Virus record (IMG/VR): IMGVR_UViG_3300030685_000046
Location: 1-42,787 of that record
DNA from: a virus
Reading direction: 5' to 3' (one strand)
Length of the DNA: 42,787 nucleotides
The notes beneath the pieces are model-generated. The model saw nothing but the letters and a program-made list of their open reading frames with translations. It was not told the origin of the DNA and made no database searches. Each line of letters starts with the position of its first letter. The stretch's first letter is position 1. The position numbers and the translations under genes are program-made. This document shows, one piece after another, positions 6,202-24,017 of this stretch.

Positions 6202-6253
6202 AATTTTAGAGTTTTGCGAATGTTTGCAAAATATGAATTAAACATATAATATT

Positions 6254-6310
6254 GTTAGCAGCAACCGCAAAAAGTTTTTTGATACGAAAGACAAGCGGTA
6301 TGCTGCTAAC
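6254..6310. repeat. Paired unit ends with no gene between them (left end of the cassette-like array)
   Basis: GTTAGCAGCA (6254-6263) and TGCTGCTAAC (6301-6310) are exact reverse complements, and CCGC (6265-6268) pairs with GCGG (6295-6298). In the other units such complementary ends flank a gene; here only 26 bases lie between them. The same GTTAGCAGCA/TGCTGCTAAC pair flanks the gene at 8079-8426. This looks like an empty unit, or one whose gene was lost or moved. Confidence 0.75.
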
Positions 6311-7250
6311 ACACACCTATGGTTAATGCCTTGTTTTTGCGCTCGTATTAAAGTGTTGCTCATTGTGTCCGTATTTTTTATCCACGCTCTCGGCTTTTCA
6401 AGCCGTTATTATTTAGTGTCGCAAAAAATCCCACACTCCCAGCTTTTAATTTTACCGCCTTTATCAGTTGGTTTTAGTTGGTCCAAAAAGATTCGTTTAC
6501 CTTTTCTCTTTACCAGTGTGCAGCCTATACGTCTGCTTTGTTCTGCTCGCTTCTCAAAAATATCAGGAAACTCACGCCTCACTAAATTCCAATAAGTTGG
6601 GCTTTGTGATTTTACGCAGCCAATACAATTAGCGTTTGGAAATTCCATGCTGTAAATAGCTGGTAGTTTTATTTTAGCTTTCCGAAGAATTTTAAAGCAA
6701 TCTTCTTTAGTTATGAGTTCGCTTATAAGTACTGGAATTGTGTTACCTCTTTCACTCTCATTGAAGTTCTTTTGCCTTTCCCATTCGTCGATTGTAAATC
6801 CGAGTACATGAAAATCAATTTTATGCGTTAGTTCAAATTGATAACGGGCTTCTTTTTTCAAAAGCATTGTACAGGGCGCGCCTAAATTGCCACTCATGTA
6901 TTTTCGTTTGTCGAAAACTTCAACTATCGAGCAGTTAGGAAAATCTTTGTTTTTAGCTTCAATAATTGGATGCTGTAACCATTCTTCAACGTCCTTTAAA
7001 AAACGTCTATTATCCTCATGTTCTTCGATAACTGGATTATTCACGATAAGTATATTGTGGGTTTGTCCATACTTTTCAAGTGTTTTCATTGCAGCTACTG
7101 CACTGGCAGCCCCACAAGAAAACCATACTGCGATTGTTTGTTTATCCATATTTTAAAATTAAGAAATCCACGCACAAAAAAATACTCTATTTGCTCTCGT
7201 CCGACCTTTTGTGCGTTAAGTCCGGCACTAAACCATAGCTGCAATACGTT
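6308..7250. repeat. attC-like site S0, split by the PP-loop gene
   Basis: Left half: AAC, a six-base spacer, CTATGGTT (6317-6324), AA, TGCC (6327-6330). Right half: GGCA (7224-7227), CTA, AACCATAG (7231-7238), a nine-base spacer, GTT (7248-7250). The two halves are complementary with the same two-part stem seen in sites S1-S4, but instead of a loop of tens of bases they enclose about 890 bases including the whole 6409-7149 gene. A second hairpin (ACGCACAAAA 7170-7179 with TTTTGTGCGT 7207-7216) sits inside, just upstream of that gene. Confidence 0.65.
6409..7149 (-). CDS. PP-loop ATPase, PAPS-reductase/DndC-like
   Basis: 246 residues. The N-terminus has a PP-loop variant, VWFSCGAASAVAAM (SCGAAS in place of SGGxDS), then ILIVNN and HEDNRRFLKDVEEWL as in the adenine-nucleotide alpha-hydrolase fold. 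Three Cys-bearing segments follow: LGAPCTMLLKKEA, NANCIGCVKSQSPTYW and a C-terminal CGIFC. That pattern resembles phage and DndC-type PAPS-reductase-like proteins, whose cysteines may hold an Fe-S cluster or transfer sulfur. True assimilatory sulfate reduction is unlikely in a phage; nucleic-acid thio-modification or anti-defence are possible but unproven. The gene lies inside the loop of a split attC-like site. A short hairpin (CGGCTT/AAGCCG, about 6391-6405) follows its stop. Confidence 0.75.
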   Translation of the reverse strand: MDKQTIAVWFSCGAASAVAAMKTLEKYGQTHNILIVNNPVIEEHEDNRRFLKDVEEWLQHPIIEAKNKDFPNCSIVEVFDKRKYMSGNLGAPCTMLLKKEARYQFELTHKIDFHVLGFTIDEWERQKNFNESERGNTIPVLISELITKEDCFKILRKAKIKLPAIYSMEFPNANCIGCVKSQSPTYWNLVRREFPDIFEKRAEQSRRIGCTLVKRKGKRIFLDQLKPTDKGGKIKSWECGIFCDTK

Positions 7251-7890
7251 AGTAGCCATTTAAAAGAAAAGAGCCGTATTGCGTTGCGATAGCTTGTGCA
7301 ATACCCGAAAATGTTTTACTCGAATCCTTCTGACTAATGTTTCTAAACGTTGCTTTTTGACCTCTTTTTGCACCGCCAGTATTTGAAGGCAGAAAAGGTT
7401 TGTATTCACTCATTATTTTTGTTGACATTAAAGGCGGTAATCCTTTGAGCCAAAATAATGTTTTCTTTGAAAAAGGATGTCCGAACTGCCACGGTTCAAC
7501 CCATTGCGATGGTTTTGGCAAATCGTAAATTTTTAAAGGCGTTGGGTTTTCAAGTAGCAAATAATCAATATCGCTATTATAAAGCTCCATAAAAAACTGT
7601 TTTGCTTTTAATCCCTTTTCGTACCGTTCTTTGTTTATTTCGCCTTTTTGATAAAGCCAACGAGCTCCGGCACGGCTTAAAAACGTACACGTGGGATGAA
7701 ATATACCAAGTTTCCATTCCTTTAGTTTAATAGCTTCTAAAACGTCCATTTGTAAATGCCATTCGGGGTGTCCGCCCGAACATTCTTGTAAGTCGCAGCT
7801 AAAAGCATTAAAGCCGAGTTTTCTAAATTCGATTGTGATTGCTTGTGATTCTTCACAGCCTACGATTATGTCAATGTCTTGTGGATTCAT
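7249..7890 (-). CDS. Cytosine-methyltransferase-like protein
   Basis: 213 residues from the ATG at 7890 (MNPQDIDIIVGCEESQAITIEF); an upstream GTG in frame lies inside the attC-like site and is not preferred. The order resembles a compact C5-MTase-type Rossmann domain: IIVGCEESQ (motif I position), FSCDLQECSGGHPEWH, LGIFHPTCTFLSRAG (motif IV position, Cys kept but PT instead of PP/PC), and YLLLENP (motif VI position, ENP for ENV). Phages carry many such proteins, some perhaps inactive or acting as decoys. The stop codon TAA lies inside the core GTTA of site S0, and the leader is only 25 bases from the core of S1, so the gene fills its unit exactly. Confidence 0.72.
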   Translation of the reverse strand: MNPQDIDIIVGCEESQAITIEFRKLGFNAFSCDLQECSGGHPEWHLQMDVLEAIKLKEWKLGIFHPTCTFLSRAGARWLYQKGEINKERYEKGLKAKQFFMELYNSDIDYLLLENPTPLKIYDLPKPSQWVEPWQFGHPFSKKTLFWLKGLPPLMSTKIMSEYKPFLPSNTGGAKRGQKATFRNISQKDSSKTFSGIAQAIATQYGSFLLNGY

Positions 7891-7912
7891 AAAGAAAGAA
7901 TAAACGGCTACT

Positions 7913-8040
7913 AACACTACAGTATGCTTAATAGCCCGCTTTTGTGGTTAATTGAAAGTTAATTGCCCGCATTAGCGGAATTTGTTTTTCGGCAGTATGT
8001 AGCCCGCAGATGTGCTACTAAAGCATACTGTCGATACGTT
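7913..8040. repeat. attC-like site S1
   Basis: AAC (7913-7915), spacer ACTA, CAGTATGCTT (7920-7929), loop, AAGCATACTG (8021-8030), spacer TCGATAC, GTT (8038-8040). A second short stem lies inside (ATAGC with GCTAC, across a small internal loop). The outer flanks pair with the far ends of the neighbouring units: GGCTACTAAC (7906-7915) with GTTAGTAGCC (7248-7257) across the methyltransferase-like gene, and GTTAGCAGCA (8038-8047) with TGCTGCTAAC (8480-8489) across the next gene. Confidence 0.8.
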
Positions 8041-8078
8041 AGCAGCAAGCGGAAGAAAAATCAACCGCCTGCGTACTA

Positions 8079-8426
8079 TTAGGCTTCTACAACAAAACGA
8101 AAGTGAGTAACGTCTTCTTGTTTTATTCCTTCGTCAACTGATTTATGAATAAAATCAAAGAATTGGTCGTCATTAGCTTTTACATAATAACCGATGAACG
8201 GATGCTCGTAGCCTTTTACTTTTATTTCCAAGTATTTTGAATAATTAATTCCTTCGTCTTCCAATACACATATAGGCTCTTCTTCGTCAACTAGAATCCA
8301 TCGCATTTTTTCTTTTAATTTTTTATCGAAAAGCTGTTCGATTCGATAGTTTGCCATTTCGCTCATACCATATTGGTGATGAATTTTTGCACATTCGTCT
8401 TGAATGTTGATTTCTAAGTTTTTCAT
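8079..8426 (-). CDS. Unknown cassette protein (115 aa)
   Basis: Starts MKNLEINIQDECAKIHHQYGMSEMANYRIEQLFDKKLKEKMRW. The first half is helical and charged, the second beta-rich (KYLEIKVKGYEHPFIGYYVKANDDQFFDFIHKS, then THFRFVVEA). It looks like a single small soluble domain. No family recognised and no catalytic motif seen. It is the only gene between sites S1 and S2, whose facing flanks GTTAGCAGCAAGCGG (8038-8052) and CCGCCATGCTGCTAAC (8474-8489) are complementary over most of their length. The leader is about 60 bases and AT-rich. Confidence 0.72.
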   Translation of the reverse strand: MKNLEINIQDECAKIHHQYGMSEMANYRIEQLFDKKLKEKMRWILVDEEEPICVLEDEGINYSKYLEIKVKGYEHPFIGYYVKANDDQFFDFIHKSVDEGIKQEDVTHFRFVVEA

Positions 8427-8486
8427 TTTTGTAATTTTTATATATTAATATTTGAGAAATTTTTAATTAAGAACCGCCATGCTGCT

Positions 8487-8568
8487 AACATCACCTATGC
8501 CATACACGGCTGACAAGTAATTTACGCTCCGACAATGTGTGCAAGCCGTGCAGGCATAGCCACACGTT
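8487..8568. repeat. attC-like site S2
   Basis: AAC (8487-8489), spacer ATCAC, CTATGCC (8495-8501), ATA, CACGGCT (8505-8511), loop, AGCCGTG (8544-8550), CA, GGCATAG (8553-8559), spacer CCACAC, GTT (8566-8568). The best-formed site: two 7-bp stems with an unequal internal loop (three against two bases), the kind of asymmetry that gives true attC sites their direction. Its flank GTTACCTGCAAGTGT (8566-8580) matches the complement of 9145-9159 at 14 of 15 positions. Confidence 0.85.
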
Positions 8569-8601
8569 ACCTGCAAGTGTAAAAAGTCCGTGCAGGTTCG
8601 A

Positions 8602-9102
8602 TTATCTGTGCATTTTTCCACCACTTAGTTCACATAGGAAAGTTAACACTAATTCCATTTCAGGATTACGAAAAGCGTGGTTTAAATAACTATGTGGCTT
8701 ATTAAGGTTGTGTTTGTTCATTTTTATATGATCTTCACATGCTTTTTCAGTGAAGAATGCGTTTTCAAGTCTTTTCTCATAATCATAATAAACCTTTCTC
8801 CACCCAGCGTCTTCGAGTATTTCTTCTTTGTCATAAGAATCTAATTCTTTAATCTTTTTCTTTGTCATTTTTCCGCACTTATAATCAAATATGGTATCAA
8901 CTATTTCTTTTTCAGTTTCAATAGTTCCACCGTCCTGATACCATGCTTCAGTTCCATTTCCTTCGGGTACTGCAATTTCATGTTCTGTTTGAACTTGAAA
9001 AAAGTAAGGCATTGCCGTTCCTCTATGGCTTTGCGTGTTTAATTCATTTGAAATTTCCATTAATGCGGAATACATTTCGTCTGATACTTCAATTGTTTTC
9101 AT
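8602..9102 (-). CDS. Unknown cassette protein (166 aa)
   Basis: Starts MKTIEVSDEMYSALMEISNELNTQSHRGTAMPYFFQVQTEHEI. Acidic, soluble, with a central helical charged part (KMTKKKIKELDSYDKEEILED). The end, LNHAFRNPEMELVLTFLCELSGGKMHR, resembles small phage and cassette proteins often annotated only as hypothetical. No catalytic motif recognised. Single gene between S2 and S3; ends of the unit are complementary over 15 bases with one mismatch. The leader is about 55 bases, AT-rich, without a clear Shine-Dalgarno. Confidence 0.75.
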   Translation of the reverse strand: MKTIEVSDEMYSALMEISNELNTQSHRGTAMPYFFQVQTEHEIAVPEGNGTEAWYQDGGTIETEKEIVDTIFDYKCGKMTKKKIKELDSYDKEEILEDAGWRKVYYDYEKRLENAFFTEKACEDHIKMNKHNLNKPHSYLNHAFRNPEMELVLTFLCELSGGKMHR

Positions 9103-9156
9103 ATTAGTATTTTATTAGTTGATTGATTTTTAATAATATAAGATACACCTGCAGGT

Positions 9157-9241
9157 AACATACGCCTATCGGCATCATTAATTAGCATTGCGAAAGTGTG
9201 TGCGATTGTGAACGCCCATGAAGCCGATAGCCTCGGTCGTT
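9157..9241. repeat. attC-like site S3
   Basis: AAC (9157-9159), spacer ATACGC, CTATCGGC (9166-9173), AT, CAT, loop, ATG, AA, GCCGATAG (9223-9230), spacer CCTCGGTC, GTT (9239-9241). Same two-part stem layout as S2. Its right flank GTTATGTTTA (9239-9248) is the exact complement of TAAACATAAC (9515-9524) on the other side of the next gene. Confidence 0.8.
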
Positions 9242-9245
9242 ATGT

Positions 9246-9482
9246 TTAATTTAAAGAAGAAAGCCATGCGGTTGAGAAACGATATAAGATTGTGCCATCG
9301 TCTCCGCAAATAGCGCAGTTTTGACCATTATCTACTCCGTACAATTCGACTTCCATAAATGGCATATCATTGTAAGTTGATTTATATTTTACGAATGTTC
9401 GTTGTTTTTCGTCAACTCGTAAATCTTTAATAAAAATTTTGTTGCCTTGTTTATCGGCTGGAATCATTGCTATTGTTGCCAT
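9246..9482 (-). CDS. Unknown small cassette protein (78 aa)
   Basis: MATIAMIPADKQGNKIFIKD and onward, with a short strand-rich fold and a CAICGDDGTILYRF segment holding a CxxC pair that could bind a metal or be structural. No family recognised. The stop codon lies inside the complementary unit end (GTTATGTTTA), so the unit is almost entirely coding. The leader next to S4 contains a 15-base sequence (plus strand 9500-9514) identical to that before the methyltransferase-like gene (7891-7905). Confidence 0.7.
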   Translation of the reverse strand: MATIAMIPADKQGNKIFIKDLRVDEKQRTFVKYKSTYNDMPFMEVELYGVDNGQNCAICGDDGTILYRFSTAWLSSLN

Positions 9483-9521
9483 ATTTTTGAATTTTGATTA
9501 AAGAAAGAATAAACTAAACAT

Positions 9522-9606
9522 AACACTAATGTATGTGTAGCCCTTATTATAATTTGACAGTGTTGTGCAGCCCGAAAACACGGGCAATACACATACATCT
9601 ATCGTT
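9522..9606. repeat. attC-like site S4 (right end of the array)
   Basis: AAC (9522-9524), spacer ACTA, ATGTATGTGT (9529-9538), AG, CCC, loop, GGG (9582-9584), then ACACATACAT (9589-9598), spacer CTATC, GTT (9604-9606). The core GTTAGGC (9604-9610) is the only one here that fits the integron R' consensus GTTRRRY fully. No complementary partner to its right flank is seen beyond the 9605-9904 gene, so the array stops here. The TAA stop of that gene is made by the core. Confidence 0.8.
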
Positions 9607-9904
9607 AGGCGCATTTAAAAACTCTTCCACAAATTCCTTTAGGAAATCTAGTTTTTTTGCTCATTTCAATAAACAAGCTAGCTTTATTCATTCTATATCG
9701 GCTACTTGATTGTTTGCTTGTTTTTTGGCGACTTTTCTCGCTACACAAACCTTCTCCTTGCTTAAACCCGAATTTTGCCTTGTACTCGCTGGCTGACATT
9801 CCATGTGCTTTGTTTACGTGGCATGATACCCGTTGAAAATACAGTCCGCAAACTTCGCATTTTACTAATCCTTTTTCGTTGTATTCAATTTCATTGTATT
9901 TCAT
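9605..9904 (-). CDS. MucR/Ros-like zinc-finger regulator, possibly cut short
   Basis: 99 residues. N-terminal CEVCGLYFQRVSCHVNKAH is a C2H2-type zinc site as in MucR/Ros proteins, followed by the family-typical GMSASEYKAKFGF. The rest is basic, with Ser/Lys-rich stretches. Likely a DNA-binding regulator. The stop codon TAA belongs to the GTTAGGC core of site S4 and the preceding residues are Phe-Lys-Cys-Ala, so the original C-terminus may have been replaced when the array formed. Full-length relatives are often longer. Confidence 0.75.
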   Translation of the reverse strand: MKYNEIEYNEKGLVKCEVCGLYFQRVSCHVNKAHGMSASEYKAKFGFKQGEGLCSEKSRQKTSKQSSSRYRMNKASLFIEMSKKTRFPKGICGRVFKCA

Positions 9905-12529: not shown

Positions 12530-13000
12530 TTAAAAGTCGGTACCAACTCCTACTCCCAATTCACCTTTAGCCGGTTGTTTCATGTCCTTTTCCTCAATGG
12601 CAAAGAAATTTTTGTAACGGCAGCTCATGGCGTATCGCAGTATTTTCACTGCTTTTTCTTCGTCGCCCTTGGCGTAGTCGTGCAATAGTTCCAGTGCCGA
12701 TTGTTCCGAATTTGAGCCAATAATTTGTCCATGCTGCTCGGCAACGTAGTTTTTCCACCGTTTCCACATTTCCACCACCGCTTCAGTTTTAAATGGTGAT
12801 TTCACGTCGATAGGTTCTACAGGTGTAATGAAATTATCGAACTCATCTACTTGCTTTTTATAAGCATTCCATTCTTTAATGAATGCTTTCGATTTTGTGA
12901 GTGCAATGCTTGATAATCCGCCATTGGCAAGGAAGTCATTCAGGGCAGCTTCTGTTTTGTCGAGATGCTTCCATACTTTGTCCCATGCTACTTTTATCAT
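12530..13000 (-). CDS. Replication-block protein of unknown family
   Basis: 156 residues from the ATG at 13000 (MIKVAWDKVWKHLDKTEAAL), which overlaps the TGA of the upstream microprotein as ATGA. Helical and charged, with NSEQSALELLHDYAKGDEEKAVKILRYAMSCRYKNFF near the C-terminus, a layout like DnaD/DnaT-type or initiator-associated tails that contact a helicase loader. The loader-like ATPase is two genes downstream. The extreme C-terminus is Gly/Val-rich and ends in DF, like the flexible tips of DNA-replication accessory proteins. Family not recognised with certainty. Confidence 0.7.
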   Translation of the reverse strand: MIKVAWDKVWKHLDKTEAALNDFLANGGLSSIALTKSKAFIKEWNAYKKQVDEFDNFITPVEPIDVKSPFKTEAVVEMWKRWKNYVAEQHGQIIGSNSEQSALELLHDYAKGDEEKAVKILRYAMSCRYKNFFAIEEKDMKQPAKGELGVGVGTDF

Positions 13001-16713: not shown

Positions 16714-16811
16714 TTGTTTTAGTACTGCGCCAAAAGCGCTCCACCACTTTGAAAAGTGGTCGTATTTTTAATAAAACGCTGAATAACAACACGTTAATTA
16801 AAATTAAAAAT

Positions 16812-17972
16812 ATGACCAACTTACCTACATTAATCGACAGCGATTTTCAAGTTCAATACATTCCGGCTAGAATTGTCAACGAAACTGAACTATATATTAT
16901 CTACTACGCTTTTCACCCGGCATACAATGCGTTGAAGCCTAAAAAAATGCGGTTGAATCATCTTCGAAAGAAGATGAGTAAAACTGCGCTCGATCGTTAT
17001 ACTCGAAAATTAGCGAATGACATCAATATCAATCTTGCTGCCGGAAAGAATCCATTCATCGGGGCTGACGTGACAAAAGCCTACGAAAAATTGACAGCTG
17101 CTATTGAAACATTTAAAATAATCAAGGAAAAGGAAATGAGTGAAGACGGATTCCGATCTTACAAGTCTTACTGCAAAAAACTGGTTGACTGGCTAACTCA
17201 AAAGAAACTTGAAAATATTTTTGCCATTCAATTTAATGAGGACTTGGCCGATGAATTTATGGACATGATTGAACTTGACCCGAAGTGCGGTTCTCGGTCG
17301 TATAATAATCATTTTGTTTTTTATCGAAGCCTTTGGTACTGGCTAATTAAGAAGAAATATTGCAAAGAAAATGTATTTTTGAATTTTGATAAGAAAAAGG
17401 AAGAGGAAAAGTTCCGGCAGGTGGTTGAATTAAATACCCACGATAAAGTGGTTCTTTGGTGTAGGGAAAATAATCCACGATTTGAGATAGTAGTGGATTT
17501 GGTGAGAGCTGCTTTCATTCGGCCGGCAGAAATTTGCCGAATTCAAATTTGCGATATTGATTTATTCAACCAGGTGATAAAAATCCCTGCAGGGAAATCG
17601 AAAACCGATAATTTCCGATTTGCTTATCTTCCGGAATGGCTTTGTGTAAAAATGGCGACTTTATACGAATTCGACAGATACCCGATGAAATATTACCTTA
17701 TATCTACCGTTTTGGAACCCGGGTTATTTAAGTGGAATACTCGAAAACTTGATAAGATTTGGGATAAACTTCGCGACAAAATGGAGTTAGAAAAAAATCA
17801 GCAGCTATACTCGTATCGCGATACTGGTATAACTGCCTTAGAAAATAAATCGATTCCGGAATCTGTAATTCGGAAACTTACCGATCACAAATCTGATAGA
17901 ATGCTGAGAAGGTATGTTCGAAAGCCATCGCAGGAACTTATAAATACTGTGGTAAAACAAATTACAGATTAA
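16812..17972 (+). CDS. int: Tyrosine recombinase (phage integrase)
   Basis: 386 residues from the ATG at 16812 (MTNLPTLIDSDFQVQYIPAR). N-terminal arm-binding part, then a SAM-like core domain (~100-200) and the catalytic domain: AAFIRPAEICRIQICDID with the first Arg, KSKTDNFRFAYLP with the Lys strand, SYRDTGITAL in place of the H-x-x-R box (Tyr for His, as in several Bacteroidetes integrases), TDHKSDRML with the second His, and the nucleophile Tyr in RRYVRK. It lies next to a tRNA-Ser-like attP core. No IntI-specific insert is seen, so it is not an integron integrase. Its stop overlaps the convergent tail gene by four bases. Confidence 0.88.
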   Translation: MTNLPTLIDSDFQVQYIPARIVNETELYIIYYAFHPAYNALKPKKMRLNHLRKKMSKTALDRYTRKLANDININLAAGKNPFIGADVTKAYEKLTAAIETFKIIKEKEMSEDGFRSYKSYCKKLVDWLTQKKLENIFAIQFNEDLADEFMDMIELDPKCGSRSYNNHFVFYRSLWYWLIKKKYCKENVFLNFDKKKEEEKFRQVVELNTHDKVVLWCRENNPRFEIVVDLVRAAFIRPAEICRIQICDIDLFNQVIKIPAGKSKTDNFRFAYLPEWLCVKMATLYEFDRYPMKYYLISTVLEPGLFKWNTRKLDKIWDKLRDKMELEKNQQLYSYRDTGITALENKSIPESVIRKLTDHKSDRMLRRYVRKPSQELINTVVKQITD

Positions 17973-23894: not shown

Positions 23895-23927
23895 AATAAA
23901 ATCAATAGGGAGAGTGAGAAAAAAGAC
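23893..23927 (-). promoter_or_regulatory. Late promoter copy 3 (tape measure)
   Basis: GTC plus six T (23927-23919), a pyrimidine-rich stretch, then TTTTATTTG with its G at position 35, followed by CAT. Matches the copies before the fibre and 473-aa genes base for base in the -7 box (ATTTG). It follows the lysis-gene terminator directly. Confidence 0.7.
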
Positions 23928-23934
23928 AAAAAAA

Positions 23935-23967
23935 AAACCGCCCTAATCTCACGATCCGGAACGGTTT
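23935..23967 (-). terminator. Terminator after the lysis genes
   Basis: On the minus strand AAACCG (23967-23962) and CGGTTT (23940-23935) form a short stem with a 21-base loop that has its own CC/GG pairs, followed by a run of T. The stem is weak but the T-run is long. It lies between the u-spanin stop and late promoter copy 3. Confidence 0.55.
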
Positions 23968-24017
23968 ATCAACTTAACTTTAAAATCTAATACAAGTATG
24001 AAAACAAAAAAGTACGA

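Follow-up and report, generated by a model that had tools for sequence, protein, structure and literature searches.

A stretch of phage DNA in which hairpins alternate with single genes raises the question of whether it is an integron cassette array and, if so, which recombinase serves it. The whole stretch analysed, here called the window, comprises the 42,787 nucleotides of IMG/VR record IMGVR_UViG_3300030685_000046. It is a contig of a Bacteroidota phage, in which terminase, head protease, tape-measure, VapE-like primase and phage integrase genes were found. When searched against annotated phages at the nucleotide level, the window gave no match. The first-pass annotation had proposed an integron-like cassette array inside a phage, without an integron integrase and recombined in trans by an enzyme of the host or of another source. 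As far as can be judged from sequence, the cassette logic, the phage location and the missing integrase hold, and recombination in trans remains inferred. Absent from that annotation were an attC with a gene in its loop, the attI-like end, and the link to a system that spans Bacteroidia, has an integrase of its own and shows inverted genes in phages.

Organisation of the cassette array

The features of the array, in the order in which they are read on the minus strand, and the phage integrase are as follows.

9521–9607, minus strand: attC-type site S4, an 11-bp hairpin with TAACG...TGTTA on the minus strand
9246–9482, minus strand: cassette gene, 78 aa, function unknown; ends 9239–9248 and 9515–9524 pair 10/10
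9156–9242, minus strand: attC-type site S3; covariance-model match at its exact ends, weak alone
8602–9102, minus strand: cassette gene, 166 aa, PHROG 3205 (unknown function); ends 8566–8580 and 9145–9159 pair 14/15
8486–8569, minus strand: attC-type site S2; covariance-model match at its exact ends
8079–8426, minus strand: cassette gene, 115 aa, function unknown; ends 8038–8047 and 8480–8489 pair 10/10
7912–8041, minus strand: attC-type site S1, 11-bp stem; covariance-model match at its exact ends
7249–7890, minus strand: cassette gene for an orphan DNA methyltransferase (PHROG 757, E 1.6e-40); unit ends 7248–7257 and 7906–7915 pair 10/10
6307–7251, minus strand: split attC, 5' arm 7251–7225 and 3' arm 6330–6307, with a gene in the loop
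6409–7149, minus strand: PAPS-reductase-like gene in the loop of the split attC (PHROG 424, E 1.6e-38)
6254–6310, minus strand: terminal unit without a gene, 57 bp, GTTAGCAGC...GCTGCTAAC
about 6243–6257, minus strand: attI-like array end TAAC/AATATTATATG; the sibling phage L003 diverges just beyond
16749–17972, plus strand: phage tyrosine integrase outside the cassette-integrase family (TIGR02249, 18.5 bits; cut-off 265)

Read on the coding strand, the array begins with S4, the first site following the phage gene 9605–9904, and continues as site, gene, site, gene without slack down to the methyltransferase. The four unit-end pairings had been claimed at these coordinates and were all confirmed, three with 10/10 and one with 14/15 bases. 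Markov shuffles yielded a mean of 0.35 paired units (maximum 2, 40 runs) compared with 5 in the window, with a criterion that did not require the exact unit-site-unit-site tiling. The complementarity is thus far above chance and not, as would have refuted the proposal, that of shuffled intergenic sequence. Extended complementarity of the unit ends is also known from classical cassettes such as aadA1, so that pairing over 10–15 bases may not be unusual in itself.

Single-gene units bounded by hairpins with a G/TT core and an inverse core AAC, as expected of an integron, were present. The constancy of GTTA and TAAC had been described correctly, and so had the finding that only 9604–9610 fits GTTRRRY fully; taken together, the window sites do not follow the core consensus GTTRRRY / RYYYAAC. 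Five hairpin sites, S0 to S4, had been counted. S1 to S4 stand, but S0 is not a simple fifth site: 6254–6310 is the gene-less 57-bp unit, and the actual fifth attC is split around the PAPS-reductase-like gene. This split attC came out on top of 147 pairings of TAACG with GTTA spaced 400–1600 nt apart, and its arms are similar to a site in the phage array L036. A PAPS-reductase-like gene was also seen in a cassette of L315.

The profile of the cassette-integrase family (alignment A2, described below) had no match anywhere in the window. The window's own integrase was considered as the cassette recombinase and rejected, since it is an ordinary phage integrase without a match to the family. With at least two attC sites in a phage genome and no integrase of the family, the window satisfies the criteria for a CALIN in a phage, and it does not satisfy those for a complete integron, which has intI beside attI and the array. 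Because the family integrase is missing, the array is probably served in trans.

Structure and covariation of the sites

The phage sites follow one layout. One arm starts with TAACG and about 4 bases, followed by a 4-bp stem, often a C.A mismatch, 5 bp, often a G.T, 2–4 bp, a near-invariant G.T (29/33) and 6 bp; on the other arm 1–2 bases precede TGTTA. In relatives, 85% of the stem cells were paired, compared with 62% after shuffling and 37–51% after sliding, and cells changed on both sides of the stem numbered 165 versus 56. The covariation score of the stems was 0.533 versus 0.154 for the shuffled control and collapsed when the partners were slid by one base. Changes on both sides were found at 17/19 inner pairs, showing that the structure is conserved and the sequence is not. 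The sequence difference between neighbouring sites, which had been pointed out at the start, is expected of such sites.

A covariance model was built from 33 sites, none of which came from the window. It recovered S1 to S4 at their exact ends with E-values of 3.4e-7, 0.0095, 0.21 and 1.0, the matches of S4 (0.21) and S3 (1.0) being weak on their own. Compared with the rest of the family, the window sites are shorter and have diverged further. Their exact-end recovery over this range of E-values indicates that the window belongs to the family as a divergent member.

The array in related phages

Over the array, the phages L002 and L003 match the window at 100% and 99.9% identity, respectively, and this phage lineage therefore shows no cassette turnover of its own. 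Samples 3300031722 and 3300028767 contain the same array. L003 stops matching the window about 15 bp beyond the final TAAC, at the attI-like end. From its position 12939 on it differs from the window, and the next bases CGTAGTTCA resemble the post-array bases of an unrelated phage, L058. In L004 to L007, which are about 75% identical in the neighbouring genes, the array is absent at the corresponding place.

Phages retrieved via the cassette genes had arrays of the same kind. A cassette of L024 (5858–6641) and one of L026 (2979–3761) share 93% identity that begins at the site (TAAC), and the two phages carry this site and gene as a unit within different arrays. A fixed gene order in related phages, the second outcome that would have spoken against a cassette array, was therefore not observed, neither in L004 to L007 nor in L024 and L026. 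Separately, whole attC sites were common to phages at 88–97% identity, one set in L011:7823–7947, L041:737–861 and L031:1848–1972 and a second in L026:4524–4650 and L031:2607–2732. These matches stop at TAAC and GTTA, and the neighbouring genes in L011 and L026 are unrelated, as if the sites had been re-used for new cassettes.

The near-identity of the array in L002 and L003, the gene lodged in one attC loop and the lack of a family integrase in the genome would fit cassettes that an integron once brought in but that no longer move and are passed on as any other gene. We consider this unlikely, since the unit ends still pair 10/10 with intact stems, the array is missing from L004 to L007 and L003 diverges at the attI-like end. 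That the array is still active is inferred; no recombination was observed.

Arrays, integrase and attI in Bacteroidia

The covariance model found matches in 184/247 Bacteroidia genomes, often many per genome, and some host arrays extend over about 50 kb (e.g. G241:C2, 8.7–59 kb). When the model was run on 33 genomes of other groups, six of which have classical IntI-type integrases, none was matched (0/33). The integrase family A2, with an example in Kaistella chaponensis (G001:C19), was present in 47/60 array-rich genomes versus 2/20 genomes without sites (Fisher p 7e-8). The other 13/60 array-rich genomes yielded no integrase at the threshold, perhaps because their assemblies are fragmented.

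In all 18 loci that had an array and an integrase together and a readable array end, the integrase lay on the attI side (18/18), in most cases with only 50–210 bp between it and the boundary of the first cassette. A shared attI motif, TAAC/TNNTTTATA, was often found at this boundary. These 18 host loci meet the criterion for a complete integron, with an integrase that lacks the I2 insertion. The phage array ends in L058 and L036 resemble the host attI motif, and the window end is a looser match. An integrase homologue was encoded by 7/46 viral records, not including the window, and the viral matches lack the host N-terminal domain. In L021 (G268:187440–188276, on a 310-kb viral contig) a short-attC array adjoins a homologue with two in-frame TAA codons, which is either a pseudogene or belongs to a recoded genome.

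In trees, the Bacteroidia integrases clustered with IntI and apart from XerC/D (support 100/99). Whether classical IntI falls inside or beside the I2-less group was unresolved (supports 80/58, 88/30, 95/82). The catalytic residues R-K-HxxR-H-Y are intact in the host and phage homologues. From the beta-strand lysine motif to HxxR the Bacteroidia enzymes have 60–65 residues compared with 102–104 in IntI; they are without the I2 insert of about 40 residues and without the RHH (His-His) motif. A classical IntI above the curated cut-off was found in only 1/247 Bacteroidia genomes (G151:C40:3592–4530, L407).

The sites differ correspondingly from classical ones. A stem bulge was absent in 99/120 (82%) of the Bacteroidia host sites, which thus do not meet the criterion of two extrahelical bases in the folded bottom strand, whereas classical sites beside IntI showed two or three bulges on the TGTTA arm with the same code. 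The scan scores bulges down and 82% is an upper-side estimate, but bulged classical sites were still detected. The spacers are 5/1, compared with about 3/3 in the classical sites that were inspected. The structure of VchIntIA shows I2 in contact with the surroundings of the extrahelical base G20'' and T12'' clamped by the two histidines (PMC3053210). The joint absence of these partner features in enzyme and site is the strongest hint at the mechanism. DNA folding energy discriminated between the strands only weakly (69/107 sites), so that strand choice remains an inference.

The array could also be an ordinary phage CALIN, with classical attC sites mobilised by a classical I2-bearing IntI of some host. 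CALINs have been reported in 17 phages, and IntI1 recombined 5/6 tested phage attC sites, including one from a Polaribacter phage (PMC9892861). The TAACG...TGTTA ends are also common to both kinds of site. Against this, a classical IntI is almost never found in the Bacteroidia genomes although 184 of them have sites, most sites have no extrahelical bases and a different spacing, and the covariance model is without matches in genomes that do have classical integron integrases. We therefore regard an ordinary CALIN as very unlikely and prefer a Bacteroidia-type integron as the source of the array.

Gene orientation and cassette content

Relative to the attC, the cassette genes were canonical in hosts (64:2) and reversed in viruses (71:2). 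Counted by locus, the canonical to reversed ratio was 24:0 in hosts and 1:26 in viruses. The viral sample includes loci drawn by the site pattern alone (47 reversed, 1 canonical). An apparent location of the host integrase at the wrong array end was rejected as an artefact of orienting the sites by the phage genes; orientation by the attC makes the hosts canonical and the phages reversed. It follows that a phage attC lies upstream of its gene, and the cassette shared by L024 and L026, with identity beginning at the upstream site, illustrates this. Possibly, transcription of the phage cassettes starts at phage promoters upstream and proceeds toward attI, which would place newcomers at the distal end of the transcript.

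Host cassette genes are longer, with a median of 246 aa compared with 107 aa for the viral ones. Host cassettes sampled contained Type IIG restriction-modification, cytosine methyltransferase, HEC-05, TIR protein and YhcG nuclease genes; phage cassettes contained several orphan methyltransferase genes and PAPS-reductase-like, YopX and deoxyribosyltransferase genes. Sites of the window kind also occur in an isolated Polaribacter phage, P12002L, on the strand of its methyltransferase genes. In a laboratory assay, IntI1 recombined one attC of P12002L, not necessarily one of these sites (PMC9892861).

Intergenic RNA hairpins, such as terminators or processing sites, might merely resemble cassette ends, and the phage stems do retain G.U pairs on the coding strand. 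However, such hairpins predict neither the pairing between both ends of a gene unit nor the opposite gene orientation at host sites, and neither an adjacent recombinase nor an attI motif. An Rfam scan found no attC-like family and nothing inside the array. The RNA-structure reading, disfavoured by the integrase association, the attI motif and the host and phage orientations, was rejected as hardly credible. Outside the array, 23925–24007, upstream of the tape-measure gene, gave a sub-threshold match to the Bacteroidetes FopS sRNA (31.7 bits, gathering 56).

Proposed mechanism and wider reading

Taken together, it is very likely that the array in the window is a phage copy of a Bacteroidia-type integron, lacking the integrase, that is recombined by an I2-less IntI-related enzyme from the host or a co-infecting phage. 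The array would consist of the attI-like end, a single unit without a gene, and a series of cassettes, each with a gene and a terminal attC hairpin. A single strand of each attC is predicted to fold and to be bound by the I2-less integrase, which would cut it at G/TT; the enzyme may be supplied by a chromosomal integron of the host or by a co-infecting phage. Cassettes would leave in circular form, with their joined ends re-forming a longer stem, and insert at attI or another attC. As a further inference, the near-invariant G.T wobble may replace the extrahelical bases in strand choice. The activity of the integrase in excision and insertion, and its action in trans on the window phage, are likewise inferred.

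More widely, we think it likely that a second class of integrons is widespread in Bacteroidia, with an IntI relative without I2 and RHH that reads unbulged attC sites, probably with a G.T-based strand choice. A parallel phage pool would hold short inverted genes, e.g. orphan methyltransferases, and draw on enzyme copies from hosts or phages. If so, integrons, so far rarely reported in Bacteroidetes, are present in most Bacteroidia, and attC recognition can do without I2 and the extrahelical bases when both are missing, although they have been described as essential or important for it. It would also provide a concrete route for gene exchange in the arms race between phages and hosts, with restriction, HEC-05 and TIR-type genes in the host arrays sampled and orphan methyltransferases in the phage arrays. 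Integrase searches that require I2 would miss the Bacteroidia loci as complete integrons. Since the I2-less form clusters with IntI, the origin of integrons would become testable; the classical I2-bearing integrons could have derived from the I2-less form.

Comparison with known systems

Integrase-less phage arrays (PMC9892861) and rare Bacteroidota integrons (PMC9024848) are already known. The Bacteroidia integron class behind the window array is apparently undescribed: no description of Bacteroidia arrays, of an I2-less integron integrase with attI or of inverted phage cassettes was found in the literature searched. Preprints and most subscription papers were outside this search, so that priority is uncertain.

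The phage CALINs (Qi et al. 2023, PMC9892861) are, like the window, integrase-less phage attC arrays with DNA methyltransferases, and the Polaribacter phage record in that study also holds window-type sites. There they were treated as classical attC sites, possibly acquired through phage mosaicism, whereas the present sites form a class specific to Bacteroidia that has an integrase, an attI and a gene-orientation rule of its own. In complete genomes, the IntegronFinder 2.0 survey found only In0 elements and one complete integron, in Salinibacter ruber, among the Bacteroidetes (PMC9024848); in the same phylum, we found sites in about three quarters of the sampled Bacteroidia genomes. Smyshlyaev et al. 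2021 (PMC8138268) described an integron-like subgroup of tyrosine recombinases and some outlying IntI-like proteins without I2. In their view integrons cannot function without the insertion, and they reported no arrays for members that lack it.

With the classical chromosomal integrons (VchIntIA, IntI1) the Bacteroidia system shares the integrase, attI, cassettes of gene and attC, and large arrays, as well as the G/TT core, TAACG...TGTTA on the folding strand and the integrase clade. It differs from them in the integrase without I2 and RHH, in the mostly unbulged sites (82%) and in an integrase gene that is often transcribed toward the array.
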